Origin: a virus | DNA: 64,000 nt | IMG/VR virus record: IMGVR_UViG_3300032236_000552 | Coordinates: 1 to 64,000 of that record | Reading direction: 5' to 3' (one strand) | Shown here: piece by piece, positions 14,807 through 27,398 of the stretch | Position numbering within the stretch: position 1 is the first letter of the stretch | Layout of the letters: every line of letters begins with the position of its first letter | Position numbers and translations under genes: made by a program | The notes under the pieces: model-generated | Databases searched by the model: none | What the model was told of the DNA's origin: nothing | Seen by the model: only the letters and a program-made list of their open reading frames with translations

Positions 14807-15436
14807 GTGTCTATTAAAAGATTTAATGGTGCTGGCCTATACGGGTCAAAAGCCACTAAAGTGTGGGACCAGTACACGACACTTAATGACTACCAGTCTA
14901 TTGCTACGGTAGTTGTCCCTTCTGGTGGTTTAAGCACAATCACATTCAATAATATTCCGCAAAATTTTACCCATCTTCAAATCCGATACAGTGCCCAAAA
15001 CAACCGTGCGTCATTTGCTACCGATGATGTAATCATGTACTACAACGGAGATAACACAGCATCTCGTTACCAATCTCACCGCATATACGGACAAGGCGCA
15101 TCTACCCCAGCCTCTGATGGTCCAAATGGAGTTGCTGGTGGGTTGGCTGGGTTTATGTACTCAACTACTGGAGGAATAACGGGAAACTTTGGTGCTGGAA
15201 TAATCGACGTTTTTGATTACGCAAGTCTTTCTAAAAACAAAGTAAGTAAAGCAGTTAGTGGTGCGGACAACAACGGCGGTACTGGTTCTGGTGCGGGACA
15301 GATTGGTATTTCGTCTTCACTTTGGACTCCAACATCTATTACAAATATTTACTCAATAACCTTTACTCCTGGTAACGGTACTTTATACTCCCAATTTTCT
15401 AAGTTTGCTTTGTATGGAATAAAGGTGGCTTCCTAA
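14807..15436 (+). CDS. Adhesin-array member 4 (no glycine-rich tip)
   Basis: 209 residues, GTG start with AAAGGGGAG upstream. The opening (SIKRFNGAGLYGSKATKVWDQ) parallels that of the gene at 10790; then comes the shared module (VVPSGGLSTITFNNIPQNFTHLQI) and the ending KFALYGIKVAS. The array therefore looks like two successive sets: a tipless member followed by two tipped members. The stop overlaps the next ATG by one base. Confidence 0.5.
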   Translation: MSIKRFNGAGLYGSKATKVWDQYTTLNDYQSIATVVVPSGGLSTITFNNIPQNFTHLQIRYSAQNNRASFATDDVIMYYNGDNTASRYQSHRIYGQGASTPASDGPNGVAGGLAGFMYSTTGGITGNFGAGIIDVFDYASLSKNKVSKAVSGADNNGGTGSGAGQIGISSSLWTPTSITNIYSITFTPGNGTLYSQFSKFALYGIKVAS

Positions 15437-16782
15437 TGGCAACTAATGGCTCTACTTACAACTTTATTGCTTCTCAAACAGCAAGCGGTTCATCCTCTTC
15501 TGTTACATTTAATAACATCCCTCAAAACTACACCGATTTTCGGGTAGTAGTTAACGCACGGTCATCTCGTTCTTCTAACTGGAGTTCTTTATCTGTTAGG
15601 TTTAATGGGGACGCAAGTTCTGCTTACTCAGATACCTTTATTCAAGCAAACAGTTCATCTGGAATCACTAGTGGCAAAGAATCGAATGTATCAACTTCCT
15701 TTGTAGGAAATATACCTGCGGCAAGCGCTACATCTGCTGCTTACGGAGTTATAATTTTAGACATATTTAATTACAGTTCGCCTAATATGTATAAGACATA
15801 CAACAGTAAAACGGGTGCAATATTAGACGGAAGCACACAAGATTTTGAAACTAACACTGGTTTATGGAGAAGTACCAATAGCATTACCTCTATAACACTT
15901 TACGATGTTTACGGAAACTTTACTTCAGCAACAACCTTTTCTTTATACGGCATTAAAGCGGCGGATACTGGTGCAACTATCCCAACAAAAGCCCTTGGTG
16001 GAGATTACATATCTACTGATGGTACATACACTTACCACACCTTCTTAAACTCAGGAACGTTTACACCTTCAGGCACTCTTACTTGTGACCTTCTCATGGT
16101 TTGTGGAGGAGGTGGAGCGGCTAACCAAGGCGCTATCGGTGCTGGTGGTGGTGGAGGTTCTGTTTACTACAACACCTCTCTAAGCCTTTCTGGTCCTCAA
16201 ACTGTTCTTGTAGGAGCAGGAGGCGCTCCAGATAATACCTCTTCTGGCCCTGGTCAAAATGGTGGTATTAGTTCTCTTGGTTCTTACACTTTTGCTTCCA
16301 ATGCAAACGCTGGCGTGAACAACGGTAGTAGTGGAAGCAACGGAGGTAACGGTGGAGGCTCTCAAAGCGTTATCTCTGGAACAACCACAAGTTACTCAGG
16401 AGGAAGCGGTTCTGGACCTTCAGGTTCTCGCAGAGGTGGCGGCGGTGCAGGTGCAGGTGCAAACGGTTCTGGAATCAACCCTGGTGCTGGCCTTAACACG
16501 TATGCTTCATGGGCATTAGCAACTAACACGGGTGACAACGGTTACTACGGCGGTGGCGGCGCTGGAGGCTATGAAGTAAACGGCGGTGGAACCTGGACTA
16601 GTGGAGGCGCAGGTGGTGGAGGAAAGGGCGGTTACGGAACCACGTCCCCATTCTATAACGGAACTGCAGGACTACCTAACACGGGCGGTGGCGCAGGAGG
16701 TTGCGGTGGTTACACAGGAGTTATTGGCGGTTCAGAAAGCAACGGTGGTTCAGGAATCGTTATTGTGAGGTACGCATCCTAA
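15436..16782 (+). CDS. Adhesin-array member 5, glycine-rich tip
   Basis: 448 residues. Module 1-175 (SSSSVTFNNIPQNYTDFRVVV ... FSLYGIKAAD), joint STDGTYTYHTFLNSGTFTP near 195-213, then the glycine-rich domain (LLMVCGGGGAANQGAIGAGGG) ending GGSGIVIVRYAS. The YYGGGGAGGYEV and GGGAGGCGGY stretches match its paralogue at 12759. Starts at TAATG, one base overlap at both ends. Probable tip adhesin. Confidence 0.6.
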   Translation: MATNGSTYNFIASQTASGSSSSVTFNNIPQNYTDFRVVVNARSSRSSNWSSLSVRFNGDASSAYSDTFIQANSSSGITSGKESNVSTSFVGNIPAASATSAAYGVIILDIFNYSSPNMYKTYNSKTGAILDGSTQDFETNTGLWRSTNSITSITLYDVYGNFTSATTFSLYGIKAADTGATIPTKALGGDYISTDGTYTYHTFLNSGTFTPSGTLTCDLLMVCGGGGAANQGAIGAGGGGGSVYYNTSLSLSGPQTVLVGAGGAPDNTSSGPGQNGGISSLGSYTFASNANAGVNNGSSGSNGGNGGGSQSVISGTTTSYSGGSGSGPSGSRRGGGGAGAGANGSGINPGAGLNTYASWALATNTGDNGYYGGGGAGGYEVNGGGTWTSGGAGGGGKGGYGTTSPFYNGTAGLPNTGGGAGGCGGYTGVIGGSESNGGSGIVIVRYAS

Positions 16783-18137
16783 TGGCTAAAACATACTCTG
16801 CTATTCAAACAGTGACTGCTGCTGGTGGTGAGTCTTTACTTACTATTTATAACATCCCACAAAATTACAACGACTTAAAAATTGTGCTGTCATTACGTGG
16901 TGGAACGGGTGTAAACTCTGTTCTCTACTTTAACGGTGTATCAACTAGTTTTACTGGACGCTATGTTGATGGTGTAGGTTCTGGTAGTGCAACTAGTGGT
17001 TCTCTTGCTAACTTTGTAGGAAATATAGAAAGCACAAGTCAAACTGCTAACACATTTTCTATTCATGAAGTTTATGTTCCTAACTATGCACAGGCTGTTG
17101 CTCACCCGTTTTTTGCAGACGCCGCAACCGAAAACGCAAGTTCTTCGGCTTACATGGATTTTGCTGCTGGTATTTGGAACCCAGGAACTTTTGCTGCCAT
17201 TAACTCTGTAGGTATTGGGTTAAGTTCTTCCACGTTTGTTGCTGGCTCTACAATGACCGTTTACGGTATAGGTTCAGGCGCTAAAGCAACTGGTGGAACT
17301 GTAGTAGGTTCTGGTAACTTCATGTATCACACATTTACTTCTTCGGGAGCATTTACTCCAACAGAACAAATCAAAAACGCCGAAGTTCTCCTTGTTGGCG
17401 GCGGAGGTGGAGGCGGAGGAGACATCGGTGGTGGAGGCGGTGCTGGTGGAGTGGCGTACTTCCCTAACCAAACTCTTACAGCAGGCACTACCTACTCGCT
17501 AACTGTAGGAGGTGGCGGTGCTGGTTCAGCAAGCAGCGTTAACCGAGGTTCAGTAGGAACAGACTCATACTTTGGCTCATTAGCCCACGCCCTTGGTGGA
17601 GGGTATGGCGGAGGTTACAACGGTAACGGTCAGGGTGGTCCAGGAAGCACAGGCGGTTCAGGTGGCGGTGCAGGAGCATCTATAGGAACTCTTGCATCTG
17701 CTTCAGGATTGCAACCATCATCAACTCCAGGTGGAGTTGGTTATGGAAACACTGGTGCTGGCTCTACAGGTTTTGGCTCTGGCGGTGGCGGAGGCGCTGG
17801 CGGTGCAGGAACAACTGCTTCTGGCGGTTCTGGCGGTGGCCTTGGTGGTACAGGTACTTCAGCATTCTCAAACTGGCATTACGCAACACAAACGGGCGTT
17901 AGTTATGGTGGAATCTACTACATCGCTGGTGGTGGAGGTGGAGGACAACAGTCTGGTGACACATACACTGGACAAGGCGGTAACGGTGGAGGAGGCCGTG
18001 GTGGTGCGTATCCTTCAACTGCTGCAATTGCAGGAACTACAAATACTGGCGGTGGCGGTGGCGGAGGCGGACAGACCATATCCACTGGTTTTGCTGGAGG
18101 CTCTGGCTTAATTATCGTTCGTTACCCAATTAACTAA
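16782..18137 (+). CDS. Adhesin-array member 6, glycine-rich tip
   Basis: 451 residues from the ATG at 16782, which overlaps the previous stop (CTAATGG). An open frame continues upstream to 16701 but only antisense-like Arg/Trp-rich sequence is added, so I reject the longer form. Shared module 1-170 (LLTIYNIPQNYNDLKIVLS ... MTVYGIGSG), joint GNFMYHTFTSSGAFTP, then the longest polyglycine runs in the set, ending GGSGLIIVRYPIN. Probable receptor-binding tip. Confidence 0.6.
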   Translation: MAKTYSAIQTVTAAGGESLLTIYNIPQNYNDLKIVLSLRGGTGVNSVLYFNGVSTSFTGRYVDGVGSGSATSGSLANFVGNIESTSQTANTFSIHEVYVPNYAQAVAHPFFADAATENASSSAYMDFAAGIWNPGTFAAINSVGIGLSSSTFVAGSTMTVYGIGSGAKATGGTVVGSGNFMYHTFTSSGAFTPTEQIKNAEVLLVGGGGGGGGDIGGGGGAGGVAYFPNQTLTAGTTYSLTVGGGGAGSASSVNRGSVGTDSYFGSLAHALGGGYGGGYNGNGQGGPGSTGGSGGGAGASIGTLASASGLQPSSTPGGVGYGNTGAGSTGFGSGGGGGAGGAGTTASGGSGGGLGGTGTSAFSNWHYATQTGVSYGGIYYIAGGGGGGQQSGDTYTGQGGNGGGGRGGAYPSTAAIAGTTNTGGGGGGGGQTISTGFAGGSGLIIVRYPIN

Positions 18138-21795: not shown

Positions 21796-23322
21796 ATGGC
21801 ATATAGCCGTCCAGGTGTTTACATTACCGAACGCCTACTACCACCAGTACTTCCTAATGGTGTGTCAGCAAACGCCGCAGGCGCAGTTGTCGCTCCATTT
21901 GCACAAGGCCCAGAAGCCGTAACTCTCGTCCAATCATGGTACGAGTTCACCAAGAACTTTGGTGGTTACAACGCTGCTTTCCCAGCAACCTTCCAGGTCG
22001 CTCAATTCTTTAGCAACGGTGGACGTGAACTCTACGTCAAGCGCTTGCTACACACCGATGCTGTTGCAGCATCAGTCAACCTCGTCACCTCTTCAAGCGC
22101 TACAGTTGCTACTGTAACCTCAAAGAACGCTGGCGCAGATGGCAACAAGTTGTACGTTGTACTTTCTGCAGGAACAGTCTCAGGAACCTACACCCTTACC
22201 CTTTACAAGGATTCAGGCGTTGTAGATACCTTCAGCCCATCTGTAACAGGAACAGGCGATGACATCCTTCTTGAGCGCTATGAGAACATCGTATTTGGCG
22301 ACCCAACCTCAAGTGACTTTGCTGAAACAGTAATCAACACTGTTTCTCCAAACATCGCTATCAGCAACTCTGCTACAGGTACACCTGTACTCACAAACCC
22401 ATACCCACTATCAAGTGGTAACGATGGAACAGCAACCGTTGCTGCTGACTACACCGCTTACAAGGGCGGAAGCGCTTCAGTATTTGAAGACTTCTCAACC
22501 TTCACACGCCCATTGGTCGTGTTCTTGCCAGCAGTCCAATCACTTGGTTCTGGTATCGCAGGTGTTTACAACGCTGCTATCTCATGGGCAGAAGCAAACA
22601 ACGGCTTCGTTGTTGCTGAAACTCCAAAGGGACAAACAGTTGCAAACGCACTTACTTACTCAGCAAGCCTAACTTCTTCTAGCAACGCTGCTGTGTACTA
22701 CCCATGGACCTACATTGCAGACCCAATTGGTCGTGGCACAGGCGCTCTCCGTTTGATTGGACCTTCTGGTGCAGTCGTCGGTCTCTACCTTGCAACAGAC
22801 TCAAGCCGTGGTGTCTTCAAGGCTCCAGCAGGTATCGGTGCAACTGTCTCAAACGTTGTATCAATTGAAAAGGCATTTACTTCTGCTGACCTTGACGCAA
22901 TGAACTCAAGCAACGCACCTGTAAACCCACTTCGCCAAATTCCTGGTGCTGGTCTTTCTGTCATGGGTGCTCGCACACTCAAGCAAGATGGCACAGCAAA
23001 CAAGTATGTAAATATGCGTCGTTCGCTTATCTACATCAACAAGCAACTGAACAACCTTACTCAGTTTGCAATTTTTGAGAATAACGATGAGGCGTTGTGG
23101 GCACGTATCCGCACTGCTCTTGCTGTGTTCTTGAACGAATACCGAAGCCAAGGTGGTCTTCGTGGAGCAACTGCTTCTCAGGCGTACTTCATCAAGTGCG
23201 ACGGAGAAAACAACACTGCTGCATCAATCGCCAACGGTGAGGTCCATATTCAAGTCGGTGTGGCTTTGCAGTATCCTGCTGAGTTCATCGTCATTGACCT
23301 AAGTCAAAAGACTTTGGTCTAA
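21796..23322 (+). CDS. Contractile tail sheath protein
   Basis: 508 residues after a TAGGAGAAG site. The N-terminus SRPGVYITERLLPP is the sheath signature, followed by a variable domain (about 90-260) and a C-terminal domain with RGVFKAPAGIGATV, PLRQIPGAGLSVMGARTL, YVNMRRSLIYINKQL and an end strand ALQYPAEFIVIDLSQ. It polymerises around the tube and contracts on infection. It is the key evidence that this phage is a myovirus. Confidence 0.95.
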   Translation: MAYSRPGVYITERLLPPVLPNGVSANAAGAVVAPFAQGPEAVTLVQSWYEFTKNFGGYNAAFPATFQVAQFFSNGGRELYVKRLLHTDAVAASVNLVTSSSATVATVTSKNAGADGNKLYVVLSAGTVSGTYTLTLYKDSGVVDTFSPSVTGTGDDILLERYENIVFGDPTSSDFAETVINTVSPNIAISNSATGTPVLTNPYPLSSGNDGTATVAADYTAYKGGSASVFEDFSTFTRPLVVFLPAVQSLGSGIAGVYNAAISWAEANNGFVVAETPKGQTVANALTYSASLTSSSNAAVYYPWTYIADPIGRGTGALRLIGPSGAVVGLYLATDSSRGVFKAPAGIGATVSNVVSIEKAFTSADLDAMNSSNAPVNPLRQIPGAGLSVMGARTLKQDGTANKYVNMRRSLIYINKQLNNLTQFAIFENNDEALWARIRTALAVFLNEYRSQGGLRGATASQAYFIKCDGENNTAASIANGEVHIQVGVALQYPAEFIVIDLSQKTLV

Positions 23323-23344: not shown

Positions 23345-23965
23345 ATGGCAACAATCAAAAATCCTCGCTCAACGTTAGCCACAGACCCAGTACGTAACTT
23401 TCGGTTCTTGGTAACGTTCCAGCCACAAGACACCTCAAATAACCTTTTGGGTAAGGTGACTATCCCTATGGGCTTTACTTCGGTATCAGGATTGTCTGTA
23501 ACCACAGACTCTATTCCTTACCGTGAAGGTGGCTACAACACGACTGTTCACCAGATTCCTGGTCAAACGTCGTTCACCCCACTTACCTTGCAACGTGGAG
23601 TAATCCTCGGAAGCAAGCAGAACTGGGATTGGATGAAGCAGTTGTTCGCAACAATCCAAGGAACTTCAAACCTAGACCCAGGTAAGAACTTCCGTTGCGA
23701 TATCGAAATCGCTGTTCTCAACCACCCAGTCCCATCTTCAGTAGCAGATGCCGTTCAAACAAGCGGCACAACATCAAATGATGAAGTAGCAATGCGTTTT
23801 AAGGTTTTCAACGCATGGCCTACAACTGTTGCGTACTCTGACCTCAATGCTGGAGACAACGCTCTCTACGTTGAGCAAATGACCCTAGTACACGAAGGCT
23901 TTGACCTAAACTGGGGCGAGTACAAAGATAGCAAGTTCACTTCAGCAGCAAACTTCACCGACTAA
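23345..23965 (+). CDS. Tail tube protein, T4 gp19 family
   Basis: 206 residues after AAGGAGAAAG. The pattern DPVRNFRFLVTFQP, then GFTSVSGLSVTTDSIPYREGG, then LTLQRGVILGSKQNWDWMKQ and YVEQMTLVHEGFDL is diagnostic of gp19-like tubes. It forms the inner tail tube, directly downstream of the sheath gene as in most contractile phages. Confidence 0.94.
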   Translation: MATIKNPRSTLATDPVRNFRFLVTFQPQDTSNNLLGKVTIPMGFTSVSGLSVTTDSIPYREGGYNTTVHQIPGQTSFTPLTLQRGVILGSKQNWDWMKQLFATIQGTSNLDPGKNFRCDIEIAVLNHPVPSSVADAVQTSGTTSNDEVAMRFKVFNAWPTTVAYSDLNAGDNALYVEQMTLVHEGFDLNWGEYKDSKFTSAANFTD

Positions 23966-23982: not shown

Positions 23983-24792
23983 ATGACGCAAACAATTAGT
24001 GCAGCGGCTAATCCCGCTTTGGCAAACAACAAGATTCAAGAAGTGATGGCTGAAAAGCCTGTACAAAAAGAAGTAAAGGTAATCCCTCCTTCGGATACCA
24101 CTGTGGCCCTTCCTGGCGGATACATCAACTCCGCTGGGGAGGTTGTCACAACAGCCGAAGTACGTGAGTTGACAGGAAAAGATGAAGAAGCAATTGCTCG
24201 CACATCAACTGTGGGTAAGGCTCTCTTGACCATCTTGCAACGTGGCGTAGTCACCGTTGGTGACGAAGAGGTTACCGACAAGATGCTTGACCAAATGTTG
24301 TCTGGAGACCGAGACATGCTTATCCTCGGAATCTTTAAGGCAACCTTTGGCAACATCTCTACCTCTCAAACTTTCTGCCAAACATGTGCGGAGGTTAAGG
24401 AAGTAGATATTGACATCAATGAAGATATCAAGATTAAGGTCCTTAATGACCCAGTTAATGACCGAGTCTTTACTGTTTCAGGAAAAAACCACGAGTACAC
24501 AGTTCAACTTCCAACTGGTGTTACCCAGAAAGAACTGTTCCTAAATACAGATAAGACAAGCGCAGAATTAAACACCATTCTTCTTGAAAACACCGTAATC
24601 AAGATTGATGGCACTCCCGTGTACAGCAAGTTGCAGGTTCAGAACCTTGGCCTTGTTGACCGTAAGAAGATTGTCGATGAGATTAATAAAAGAATATGCG
24701 GTCCACAGTTTGATGACCTAGTCCTCGACTGTCCAGACTGTGAAGGTGAGGTACGTGTTCCTATTAGTTTAGGCAACCTGTTTCGCTTCTAA
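23983..24792 (+). CDS. Tail assembly chaperone / T4 gp26-like, zero-frame product
   Basis: 269 residues with AAAGGAAT upstream. The core TTAEVRELTGKDEEAIAR, then LLTILQRGVVTVGD and MLSGDRDMLILGIFKATFG matches the T4 gp26-like/tail chaperone family. Two CxxC pairs (CQTC near 132; CPDC near 250) probably bind zinc. The gene lies between tube and tape measure genes, where tail chaperones with programmed frameshifts are typical. The protein ends abruptly at LGNLFRF, and a +1 frame continues open to 24940 (separate entry). Confidence 0.68.
   Translation: MTQTISAAANPALANNKIQEVMAEKPVQKEVKVIPPSDTTVALPGGYINSAGEVVTTAEVRELTGKDEEAIARTSTVGKALLTILQRGVVTVGDEEVTDKMLDQMLSGDRDMLILGIFKATFGNISTSQTFCQTCAEVKEVDIDINEDIKIKVLNDPVNDRVFTVSGKNHEYTVQLPTGVTQKELFLNTDKTSAELNTILLENTVIKIDGTPVYSKLQVQNLGLVDRKKIVDEINKRICGPQFDDLVLDCPDCEGEVRVPISLGNLFRF
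24773..24792 (+). other. Candidate +1 ribosomal frameshift site (TTT CGC)
   Basis: The +1 frame becomes open at 24773, just after its TAG at 24770, and the zero frame stops at 24790-24792. Inside this 20-nt window lies CTG TTT CGC TTC TAA. At TTT (24781-24783) the Phe tRNA can slip one base to TTC, its better match, while CGC waits in the A site. The UUU-C geometry is a known +1 slip type. The -1 frame closes within about 15 codons. Confidence 0.55.
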
Positions 24793-24940
24793 CAGGCTTC
24801 CGTACCAGTTGCTTATGGAAGAGTGGCTGGTAGTAACTGATTTGTACCCTAGTTGGACTCTAACCGAGATACAAAACCTATCTTGGAGAGAGCGTAAGAA
24901 TTGGATAGAACTCGTACAGTTGAAAGTAAGAAAGGCGTGA
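24785..24940 (+). CDS. Frameshift extension of the tail chaperone
   Basis: Read in the +1 frame this adds 51 residues (ASNRLPYQLLMEEWLVVTDL, then YPSWTLTEIQNLSWRERKNW and a short tail) to residue 267 of the upstream protein, giving about 318 residues. An internal ATG at 24815 would give a free 41-residue protein, but no ribosome site precedes it. The LTEIQ...WRERKNWIE ending is of the kind that ends full-length gp26-like or chaperone proteins. It stops one base before the tape-measure start. Confidence 0.58.
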   Translation, partial: ASNRLPYQLLMEEWLVVTDLYPSWTLTEIQNLSWRERKNWIELVQLKVRKA

Positions 24941-24941
24941 T

Positions 24942-27398
24942 GTGTCAGTTGTAAACAACCTCCAAGCCATGTCCACTGGCATTGGAGACTTAACCAAGCG
25001 CATCAACGAACTTCATGCTGCCATAAAGTCAACAGGCAGTGAAGTCAATACTACTTTCAGCACCTTAAAGGCTGCCCTCGGTAACGGGGGCCAGCGTGGT
25101 CTTATGTCTGGCGGACAAGGCAACTCAATGTTTGGGTCTTTGTCTACCTTCTCTACACAGGGGCAAAGCGGTGGTGTAGGACCGTATCGCCCAACATCTG
25201 CAAACCAAATGGAGAGCGCTACCTTCTCTGGTCAATCCACTTACACTCAACAAGCAGCCCAAGCGCAAGTAGGGTCAGGCATCGTACAAGCAGGTGTAGG
25301 GCTTGTTCAAATGGCAGCAGCACCAGTTATCGGTGCTTACGGCATGACCATGGATTCTTCTGGAATCGTAAACCGTGCTGGTGCTTATTACCAAGCAGCA
25401 TTGCGTTCTCCAGGAATGAATCGTCTTAGCCTTGAGAAGGCAACCTTTAGCGCCCTTAATGGCGGTATGACAAGCATTGGTTCAGACGCTGCGGTAGCAA
25501 ACACCTTGGTCAATGCTGGATATGTTCCAGGAAGCCAAAACTACATTAACGCTGTTAAGCAAGTTGGTGGCGCTGCTAACTACCTAGGCATGGCAAACCA
25601 AAATGCTGCAACTGCAATTGCTGGTTTGCAAAGCGGAACCATGGGAGCCAATCTTTATCAATACGGCATTACTACCATGGATACAAGTGGAAACAGCAAG
25701 AGCGTAGGAGACATCGCTCAACAGTTATACAAAGTAATGTTTCCTAACGGCGGAACAAAAGAAAGTATTCAAAAGTCCATCCAAAGTGGTTATGCTGGGT
25801 TAAACCTACAGGGTTTGAACATGTCCCCTGACCAACAACAGATGATTACACAGGCTTTAATTGACATCTCTGCTGGAAAGAATCCAGACCTTGCTTCTGC
25901 AAAGTCCGCTAAAGGAAACATGAATCCATTTAGCGCCATGTATAAGATGAACAATTCTCAAACGAGTATTCAACAATCTTCAGAAACAAGCACACTCAAT
26001 GGCCTCAATGCTGCTGCAGACACAGTCGTTGCCTTCAACAATGCACTTCGTCCAGTAATCGACTCCCTTGCTTTATTTAAGGGATACCTTGATGGCATGA
26101 GCGGCACAAACGTGGGACGAGGAATAAAGGCTGGCTCAAAGTCATTCATGAGTGGAGTAAGCAACTTCATCAGTGGAGCAGCAGGAGTACTTGCGGGAGT
26201 TGCTCTGCTAGGAGGCGGTACTCCAGGTTACGGCGGTAAGTTCTCTCGTTCTGGACCAAAGGGTGGAGGAACACCTGGAGGTGGAGCAGCCAATGCACTC
26301 ATCTCCGCTACCTATGGTGCAACAGATAGTTCGGGTATTTGGGCGTCAACGGGAAACACTCACCAGGGAACTGACTACGACGTTCCTTTGAGTACCCCTG
26401 TTTACGCTACACAAGACGGTTATGTTTCTGGAAAAACACTAAGTAGCGATTATGGTAACGCTGTAATCATTGACCATCCAGGTGGATACTCAACTATTTA
26501 TGCTCACCTTAGCAACAAAGAAGTTAGCCCTGGAGACCGTGTATTCAAGGGAACAGAAGTTGGTAAGTCAGGAAAGTCTGGAAATACAACTGGCCCTAGC
26601 CTTCACTATGAGGTGTGGCACGGAGATAACAACCCAGTAAGTCCTACTGAATTGCAGGGCGCTGGTGACCCTGTTATGGCGGGTATTGGCGGAGGCTCTA
26701 CATCTTCTGCACTTTTGCAGCAGCAATCATTGGCTAACCAAACGGGTTCTGCTAGTTCCAACCCAAGCCTTGGAGCAGCAAACAACTCTAACCTTGGTTC
26801 AGCAGCAGAAAAATCTTGGGCAACAAGTTTCCTAACTGCTATGGGCGCTCCAGTAAATGACGCAAACGTTCGTGCCGTATCGACATGGGCGCATTTTGAA
26901 GGCGGGTTAAGTCACAATAATCCATTAAACACTGGCTTAAAGATGCCTGGTTCAACAGACTTCAATACTAGTGGTATACAGACTTACGGAAGTTTAGACC
27001 AAGGTACGCAAGCAATTATCCAAACCCTTGAAGGTAACCAGGCAGATACTCGTGGTTACAAAAAGATTGTTGAAGACCTTATGGCGGGCGCTCCTACGGG
27101 TACCACCCTTAACGATATTAACAACTCTGCATGGCGTTCAGGAAAAACAGGGGACCCTGGATACAACTTCCCTAAAGGTGGAGGAACACCAGGATATGGT
27201 GCAAATCTTCCAGACCCAACGTCTTCCGCTGCCGCAAGTGTTCAGGCTGCATCAAACTTAGTTAACAATAGTGGAAACACCGTAAATGTTTACTTGACTA
27301 TTGCACAAGCATCAGACTCAGAAGCGATACTCTTTGCAAAGAAGGTTGAGTCTTACCTTAATAACAACAGTAATATAACGACGATTGGTAGTGCATGA
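24942..27398 (+). CDS. Tape measure protein with M23-like and lysozyme-like domains
   Basis: 818 residues, GTG start with AAAGG upstream. The N-terminal part (1-420) is helical and Gly/Ala/Gln-rich, as in tape measures; position after the chaperone supports that call. Residues about 454-576 are an M23 (LytM) peptidase domain: THQGTDYDV supplies His and Asp zinc ligands and YAHLS a further His. The usual HxH reads SLH (GPSLHYEV), so one catalytic His is replaced by Ser. Residues about 624-747 (AVSTWAHFEGGLSHNNPLNT ... YGSLDQGTQAIIQTL) resemble a lysozyme-like tail domain. It would set tail length and help cross peptidoglycan. Confidence 0.72.
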   Translation: MSVVNNLQAMSTGIGDLTKRINELHAAIKSTGSEVNTTFSTLKAALGNGGQRGLMSGGQGNSMFGSLSTFSTQGQSGGVGPYRPTSANQMESATFSGQSTYTQQAAQAQVGSGIVQAGVGLVQMAAAPVIGAYGMTMDSSGIVNRAGAYYQAALRSPGMNRLSLEKATFSALNGGMTSIGSDAAVANTLVNAGYVPGSQNYINAVKQVGGAANYLGMANQNAATAIAGLQSGTMGANLYQYGITTMDTSGNSKSVGDIAQQLYKVMFPNGGTKESIQKSIQSGYAGLNLQGLNMSPDQQQMITQALIDISAGKNPDLASAKSAKGNMNPFSAMYKMNNSQTSIQQSSETSTLNGLNAAADTVVAFNNALRPVIDSLALFKGYLDGMSGTNVGRGIKAGSKSFMSGVSNFISGAAGVLAGVALLGGGTPGYGGKFSRSGPKGGGTPGGGAANALISATYGATDSSGIWASTGNTHQGTDYDVPLSTPVYATQDGYVSGKTLSSDYGNAVIIDHPGGYSTIYAHLSNKEVSPGDRVFKGTEVGKSGKSGNTTGPSLHYEVWHGDNNPVSPTELQGAGDPVMAGIGGGSTSSALLQQQSLANQTGSASSNPSLGAANNSNLGSAAEKSWATSFLTAMGAPVNDANVRAVSTWAHFEGGLSHNNPLNTGLKMPGSTDFNTSGIQTYGSLDQGTQAIIQTLEGNQADTRGYKKIVEDLMAGAPTGTTLNDINNSAWRSGKTGDPGYNFPKGGGTPGYGANLPDPTSSAAASVQAASNLVNNSGNTVNVYLTIAQASDSEAILFAKKVESYLNNNSNITTIGSA

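Follow-up and report, generated by a model that had tools for sequence, protein, structure and literature searches.

A gene encoding 269 amino acids, located between the tail tube and tape-measure genes of this virus, overlaps an open reading frame (ORF) in the +1 frame. This arrangement raises the question of whether ribosomes change frame within the overlap to produce a longer protein. We analyzed a stretch of 64,000 nt (hereafter, the window), which corresponds to positions 1 to 64,000 of the IMG/VR record IMGVR_UViG_3300032236_000552. The relevant features, all on the + strand, are the following:

21796..23322, +, tail sheath protein (phrog_23)
23345..23965, +, tail tube protein (phrog_4542), directly upstream of the 269-aa ORF
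23983..24792, +, zero-frame ORF of 269 aa, putative gp26-like hub/tail assembly chaperone (short form), PF12322
24770..24772, +, +1-frame TAG that bounds the shift window on its upstream side
24778..24789, +, shift site CTG TTT CGC TTC, with the sole re-pairing codon of the overlap; TTT C[GA]N in 104 of 104 loci
24790..24792, +, zero-frame stop TAA, two codons past CGC
24785..24940, +, +1-frame extension of 51 aa plus TGA, three predicted helices, inferred to correspond to the C-terminus of T4 gp51
join(23983..24783,24785..24940), +, inferred long form of 318 aa, which aligns as a single protein with its relatives
24942..27398, +, tape-measure-type protein carrying an M23 peptidase domain, GTG start at 24942, immediately downstream

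Reading frames and gene context in the window

The zero-frame ORF terminates with ...GGC AAC CTG TTT CGC TTC TAA, and the +1 frame is open from position 24773 to a TGA stop at 24938-24940. The gene order is tail tube, 269-aa ORF and tape measure, with a single base separating the stop of the extension from the GTG start of the tape-measure gene. The first-pass annotation, made from the sequence alone, had described an ORF at 23983-24792 overlapped by a +1 ORF open over 24773-24940, and this description was exact to the base. It had also placed a shift at TTT CGC, yielding a fused protein of 318 residues with an F267/A268 junction and an extension of 51 residues; these coordinates held when we translated the sequence again. 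The room available for a shift in the window, from the +1-frame TAG to the zero-frame stop, is ~17 nt. Within this overlap, the TTT codon at 24781-24783 is the only one that can re-pair with its own tRNA in the +1 frame (TTC at 24782-24784; one Phe tRNA). All the remaining codons present mismatches at one to three positions, the nearest alternative being AAC to ACC, which is mismatched at the middle position. Reading TTTC as one Phe gives the 318-residue protein, in which F267 is followed by A268.

It had further been claimed that the -1 frame closes quickly and that the extension lacks a ribosome site of its own. The -1 frame does close, at ~24832. The second claim needs a small correction, since the +1 frame of the window contains TTG and ATG codons (codons 9, 11 and 20 of the extension); none of them has a Shine-Dalgarno-like sequence, and their positions are not conserved. 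The site of the window does not belong to the -1 class with an XXXYYYZ heptamer: its extension is in +1, and the -1 frame is closed. Across 27 relatives, 8-10% of codons are stops when the region holding the extension is read in its two remaining frames; 51 open codons would therefore be expected by chance in ~1% of cases for this single sequence. Taken alone this is weak evidence, but the evidence is decisive across relatives, since the same frame relation and TTT-C were found in 104 of 104 loci.

Other features of this contig were noted. The M23 peptidase domain of the tape-measure-type protein is located at positions 26358-26642 of the window (residues 473-567), and the homologue of this protein in the Streptomyces phage BRock is annotated as an endolysin. 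Two neighboring ORFs, at 15436-16782 and 16701-18137, share ~80 nt in different frames, and each has a Gly_rich_2 domain at its end. The 99,864-base contig contains a single tRNA, Gln-TTG, which lies outside the window (L226:16118-16189; contig positions 80118-80189). We found no link between this tRNA-Gln (TTG) and the shift site.

Conservation of the frame relation and of the slip codon

Searches for relatives, started from the fused protein, from an alignment and from the BRock homologue, yielded ~100 contigs as well as the Streptomyces phages BRock, LuckySocke, Alone3, pSt2308 and GiJojo. All loci were scanned with two profiles and, after filtering, 104 loci were retained, represented by 40 sequences at 90% identity. 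The extension was found in the +1 frame in all 104 loci holding both parts, down to ~29-37% identity. Every one of these loci presents TTT with CGN, CAA or CAG as the next codon, and the zero-frame stop comes two or three codons later. Among the 40 representatives, the codon after TTT is CGC (13), CGA (8), CGT (5), CGG (5), CAG (5) or CAA (4), i.e., CGN in 31 and CAA or CAG in nine. The first-pass annotation had compared the site to the UUU-CGN geometry, and this must be refined to include CAA and CAG as A-site codons in relatives. The codon preceding TTT encodes Leu in 39 representatives and Met in one. The zero-frame stop is found two codons on in most freshwater phages and three codons on in the Streptomyces phages. 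What separates CGN from the stop differs in both sequence and number of codons (TTC; CTC; GAA CTC; GGT ATC; none). The +1 relation and TTT-C span the Streptomyces phages (~37% identity), a locus on a Streptomyces chromosome and a contig at 29% identity. These loci share ancestry and are not independent trials, yet their divergence is large (pS ~0.67).

The fused 318-residue translation aligned as one protein with the proteins of its relatives. In BRock, LuckySocke, Alone3 and GiJojo, the extension is annotated as a separate 'hypothetical protein', and it is omitted from the annotation of pSt2308. Two bacterial chromosomes also carry related genes. In Streptomyces diastatochromogenes (L105:4920-5931), the same gene presents CTG TTT CGC GAT TTC TAG and all its other Phe codons are TTC; this locus is likely a prophage or a tail-like element. 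The homologue of Streptomyces sp. AP-93 (L106:4989-5660) has neither the TTT site nor a recognizable extension.

The extension evolves under purifying selection. Across 27 freshwater representatives, its dN/dS is ~0.21, relative to 0.17 for the zero-frame part, and the other two frames of the extension contain 132 and 109 stops. We then considered potential start codons. In 13 of the 40 representatives, the +1 frame holds no ATG, GTG or TTG between 20 codons upstream and 25 codons downstream of the site. Where such starts occur in this set, their positions differ and almost none is preceded by a Shine-Dalgarno-like sequence. This rules out a separate start as the general way in which the extension is expressed.

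Elsewhere in these genes, TTT accounts for 78% (freshwater) and 46% (Streptomyces) of the Phe codons. When Phe precedes CGN elsewhere in these phages, TTT is used in 30% (freshwater) and 6% (Streptomyces group) of cases, versus 100% at the site. A strong depletion of TTT relative to TTC is seen in these phages ahead of codons with C or T as first base, and not just ahead of CGN. We rejected the shortage before CGN as specific evidence of slipperiness, since CTN, CAY and T-initial codons show it as well. Finally, we found no conserved RNA pairing downstream of the site across 27 sequences, and the RNA fold of the window showed no unusual stability (z -0.67). In the absence of a conserved stimulator, the efficiency of the shift cannot be judged.

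The gp26/gp51 family and the joint in distant phages

The 269-aa ORF matched Pfam PF12322 (T4_baseplate; 36.6 bits for a cut-off of 24.5) and phrog_150 (baseplate hub). T4 gp26 (215.6 bits) and residues 1-201 of T4 gp51 (177.5 bits) both match PF12322 and are therefore paralogues, gp51 carrying a C-terminal addition. The first-pass annotation had named the gene a tail chaperone; we refine this to a hub chaperone of the T4 gp26/gp51 type (PF12322), a role that is inferred. The C-terminal half of T4 gp51 and the short gp51 of cyanophages share phrog_634 (hub assembly catalyst). Using hhalign, the extension of the window group matched the cyanophage extension at 87% alone and 95% when fused, and the fused profile of the window group matched the fused profile of the SP-15 type at 98%, extension included. 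The direct comparison of the window group to T4 gp51 was weak (6-8%). The extension appears to correspond to the gp51 C-terminus, but this inference is linked via the cyanophage extension.

A structure model of the 318-aa protein (mean pLDDT 88.2) was built using plain translations of both the zero and the +1 frame from relatives, together with the fused protein of the window itself. Three helices are predicted for the extension, with lower confidence (53-81 per ten-residue block). When compared to PDB structures with Foldseek, the only sensible match was the HK97 tail assembly chaperone 2ob9, and this match was weak (prob 0.94-0.95; TM by target 0.49-0.54; E 0.18-0.30). A resemblance to the HK97 chaperone is possible, but it rests on a predicted model and is no more than suggestive. 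A sequence search of the PDB with the fused protein gave no match. Against viral models, the fused model matched T4-like hub proteins, including that of SP-15.

For distant members of the family, we read past the zero-frame stop to find the frame of the extension. This frame is +1 in SP-15 (TTT TTT CAC), LIS04 (TTT TTT AGT), GXN1 (TTC TTT CGT), the huge phage LR756508 (TTT CTA), as well as Mel-JY01 and marine contigs (TTT TGG). It is -1, at T_TTT_TTC, in KVP40, Bellamy, Atu_ph07, PA5oct, LR756511, Aeromonas phages CC2 and 65, Citrobacter phage Ci1 and Desulfovibrio phage 7757. In the Aeromonas phages CC2 and 65 (L221:1929-2117 and L222:1962-2141), the -1-frame gp51-like extension following T_TTT_TTC is missing from the annotation of the former and only partly called in the latter.

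In the cyanophage-type contigs, the heptamer was found in 78 of 80 contigs (32 of 32 representatives), with the slip U_UUU_UUC. The Ser or Gly codon that precedes it always ends with T, relative to 64% (Ser) and 40% (Gly) elsewhere. Cyanophages also keep an ATG ~7 codons into the extension, although none of the 32 representatives presented a Shine-Dalgarno-like sequence before it. Both KVP40 and the cyanophages are annotated with two genes, yet they carry the -1 heptamer. One cyanophage-type contig (L127:1501-2145) was excluded from the slip-site counts due to an apparent indel, which interrupts its gp26 ORF well upstream of the heptamer. In another (L199:1501-2394), a single ORF (SFWLGMAH...) joins gp26 in frame to the gp51-like extension, and apparently lacks two bases that relatives have at the heptamer. 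Finally, the second part is a separate gene started by ATG in Vibrio phage YC (TAATG overlap) and in the contigs L213 and L216, and T4 possesses two paralogous genes (gp26 and gp51).

Alternative explanations and the proposed mechanism

The extension could represent a separate small gene translated by reinitiation after the zero-frame stop. It is annotated as a separate gene in BRock, LuckySocke, GiJojo, KVP40 and cyanophages, and both the ATG of the cyanophages and the TAATG overlap of Vibrio phage YC are compatible with this view. However, about a third of the representatives (13 of 40) have no candidate start around the site and the other starts are not fixed. This hypothesis also leaves the invariant TTT-C unexplained and, in cyanophages, the ATG lacks a Shine-Dalgarno-like sequence while the -1 heptamer is invariant. 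We consider it very unlikely for the window. The first-pass annotation had stated that homologues with a separate second gene would refute the frameshift. Some distant relatives (Vibrio phage YC, L213 and L216) do express the second part as an ATG-started gene, which counts against the +1 case, but all of them fall outside the clade of the window.

It had likewise stated that an extra or missing base producing a single ORF in relatives would refute the frameshift. A sequencing or assembly indel is conceivable, since a one-base difference would fuse the two frames, but 104 loci, drawn from many metagenomes as well as from finished phage genomes, share this arrangement; around the site they differ by substitutions and by no indel. 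None of the 104 relatives presented the single ORF, the natural in-frame fusion being that of the cyanophage-type contig L199. An indel is therefore all but excluded. A third possibility is a real frame change that takes place at the stop codon (TTC TAA) or through a -2 slip. Frame arithmetic permits a -2 slip. The known +1 site of prfB involves a stop codon, and so does the +1 site of phage PSA (PMC5009743). Nevertheless, there is no cognate re-pairing for TTC to TCT nor, by inspection, for a -2 slip, and TTT-C is constant, unlike the codons that separate CGN from the stop. This too appears very unlikely.

The programmed +1 frameshift at TTT CGC that had been claimed is strongly supported by comparison, because the arrangement is found in every close relative and in most distant ones, the codon re-pairs, the extension is under purifying selection and a third of the representatives lack usable starts. 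The position of the gene between tail tube and tape measure, the good model of the fused protein with its weak resemblance to the HK97 chaperone and the natural fusion in L199 also count in its favor. A +1 shift at UUU-CGC in vivo is very likely, but it is inferred by comparison and frameshifting itself was not measured. In the proposed mechanism, most ribosomes would translate 23983-24792 and release the 269-aa gp26-like chaperone. With the Phe-tRNA (anticodon GAA) in the P site on UUU and an empty A-site CGC, a minority would move +1 onto UUC and continue in the +1 frame, yielding a product of 318 aa with a predicted helical domain in its last 51 residues. The short and long forms would probably both be needed, at a fixed ratio, for the assembly of hub, tape measure and tube, as for lambda gpG/gpGT. 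This function as a G/GT-like pair of chaperones is likely and constitutes our best reading, although it is inferred, as are the ratio and the role of each form.

Frameshifts in tail assembly chaperones are classic and usually -1. In lambda, the programmed frameshift of the G/GT genes (Xu, Hendrix & Duda 2004, per PMC5009743) also involves overlapping ORFs between tail tube and tape measure, a short and a C-terminally extended form, and a helical extension. The gene described here differs by its +1 direction, the absence of an XXXYYYZ heptamer and its first ORF (PF12322, 269 aa). A +1 shift was suggested for the tail chaperone of the myovirus HSTV-2 (PMC5009743), and a TTT-CGC motif was proposed for +1 shifting in HF1-like haloarchaeal myoviruses (PMC7230728), likewise upstream of the tape measure and likewise only inferred. 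These viruses infect archaeal hosts. The first CDS of HF2 belongs to another family (phrog_14268, 156 aa), and we therefore rejected homology with the HF1/HF2 chaperones, and the shared TTT-CGC motif looks convergent. The UUU_CGN shift is also known from influenza PA-X and plant amalgaviruses (PMC5052127), where the efficiency of the influenza site is ~1-2% in rabbit reticulocyte lysate (PMC5052127). The P-site/A-site geometry, the move of Phe-tRNA from UUU to UUC and the lack of an obvious stimulator are similar, but those shifts occur on eukaryotic ribosomes and in unrelated proteins, and nine of our 40 representatives use CAA or CAG.

Within the family, the short form resembles gp26 (domain only) and the long form resembles gp51 (domain plus C-terminal extension), but T4 encodes them as two separate paralogous genes rather than as one gene with a frameshift. 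The cyanophages, KVP40 and Aeromonas phages CC2 and 65 share the gp26/gp51 pair, the joint, the overlapping frames and a slip on UUU codons; theirs is a -1 shift at U_UUU_UUC and the second part of the cyanophages also keeps its ATG. A two-gene form of G/GT was proposed for phage 0305phi8-36 (PMC2147016), which offers a precedent for this reading of T4. We lean slightly towards a bolder interpretation: across T4-type and other myophages, gp26 and gp51 would be a single tail assembly chaperone in its short and long versions (the pair of T4 being T4's G/GT), the long form being made by +1 (UUU_C or UUU_U) or -1 (U_UUU_UUC) frameshifting, by in-frame fusion or, in T4, by gene duplication, and the short gp51 of cyanophages would be the frameshifted tail of gp26. 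We found no description of gp26/gp51 frameshifting in the open-access literature searched; subscription journals were mostly not covered and novelty is unproven.

The scope of this phenomenon is wider than the first-pass annotation had seen. A +1 shift at TTT-CGC was already proposed for the unrelated halovirus chaperones. The +1 site TTT-CGN/CAR does not vary between freshwater and Streptomyces phages and offers a natural series, from bacteria, of a motif known best from viruses of eukaryotes. T4 gp51 was described as essential and of unknown function in a 2010 review (PMC3004832), and our interpretation offers a testable role for this protein. The gp51 of cyanophages and vibriophages lacks the first ~200 residues, as noted by Sullivan et al. 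2010 (PMC3037559); a -1 shift from gp26 would supply these missing residues and explain the truncation. The C-terminal domain is missing from many phage annotations. By comparison, this probable trick is widespread, though largely unannotated, and it connects gp26 with gp51, two classic tail-assembly proteins of T4.
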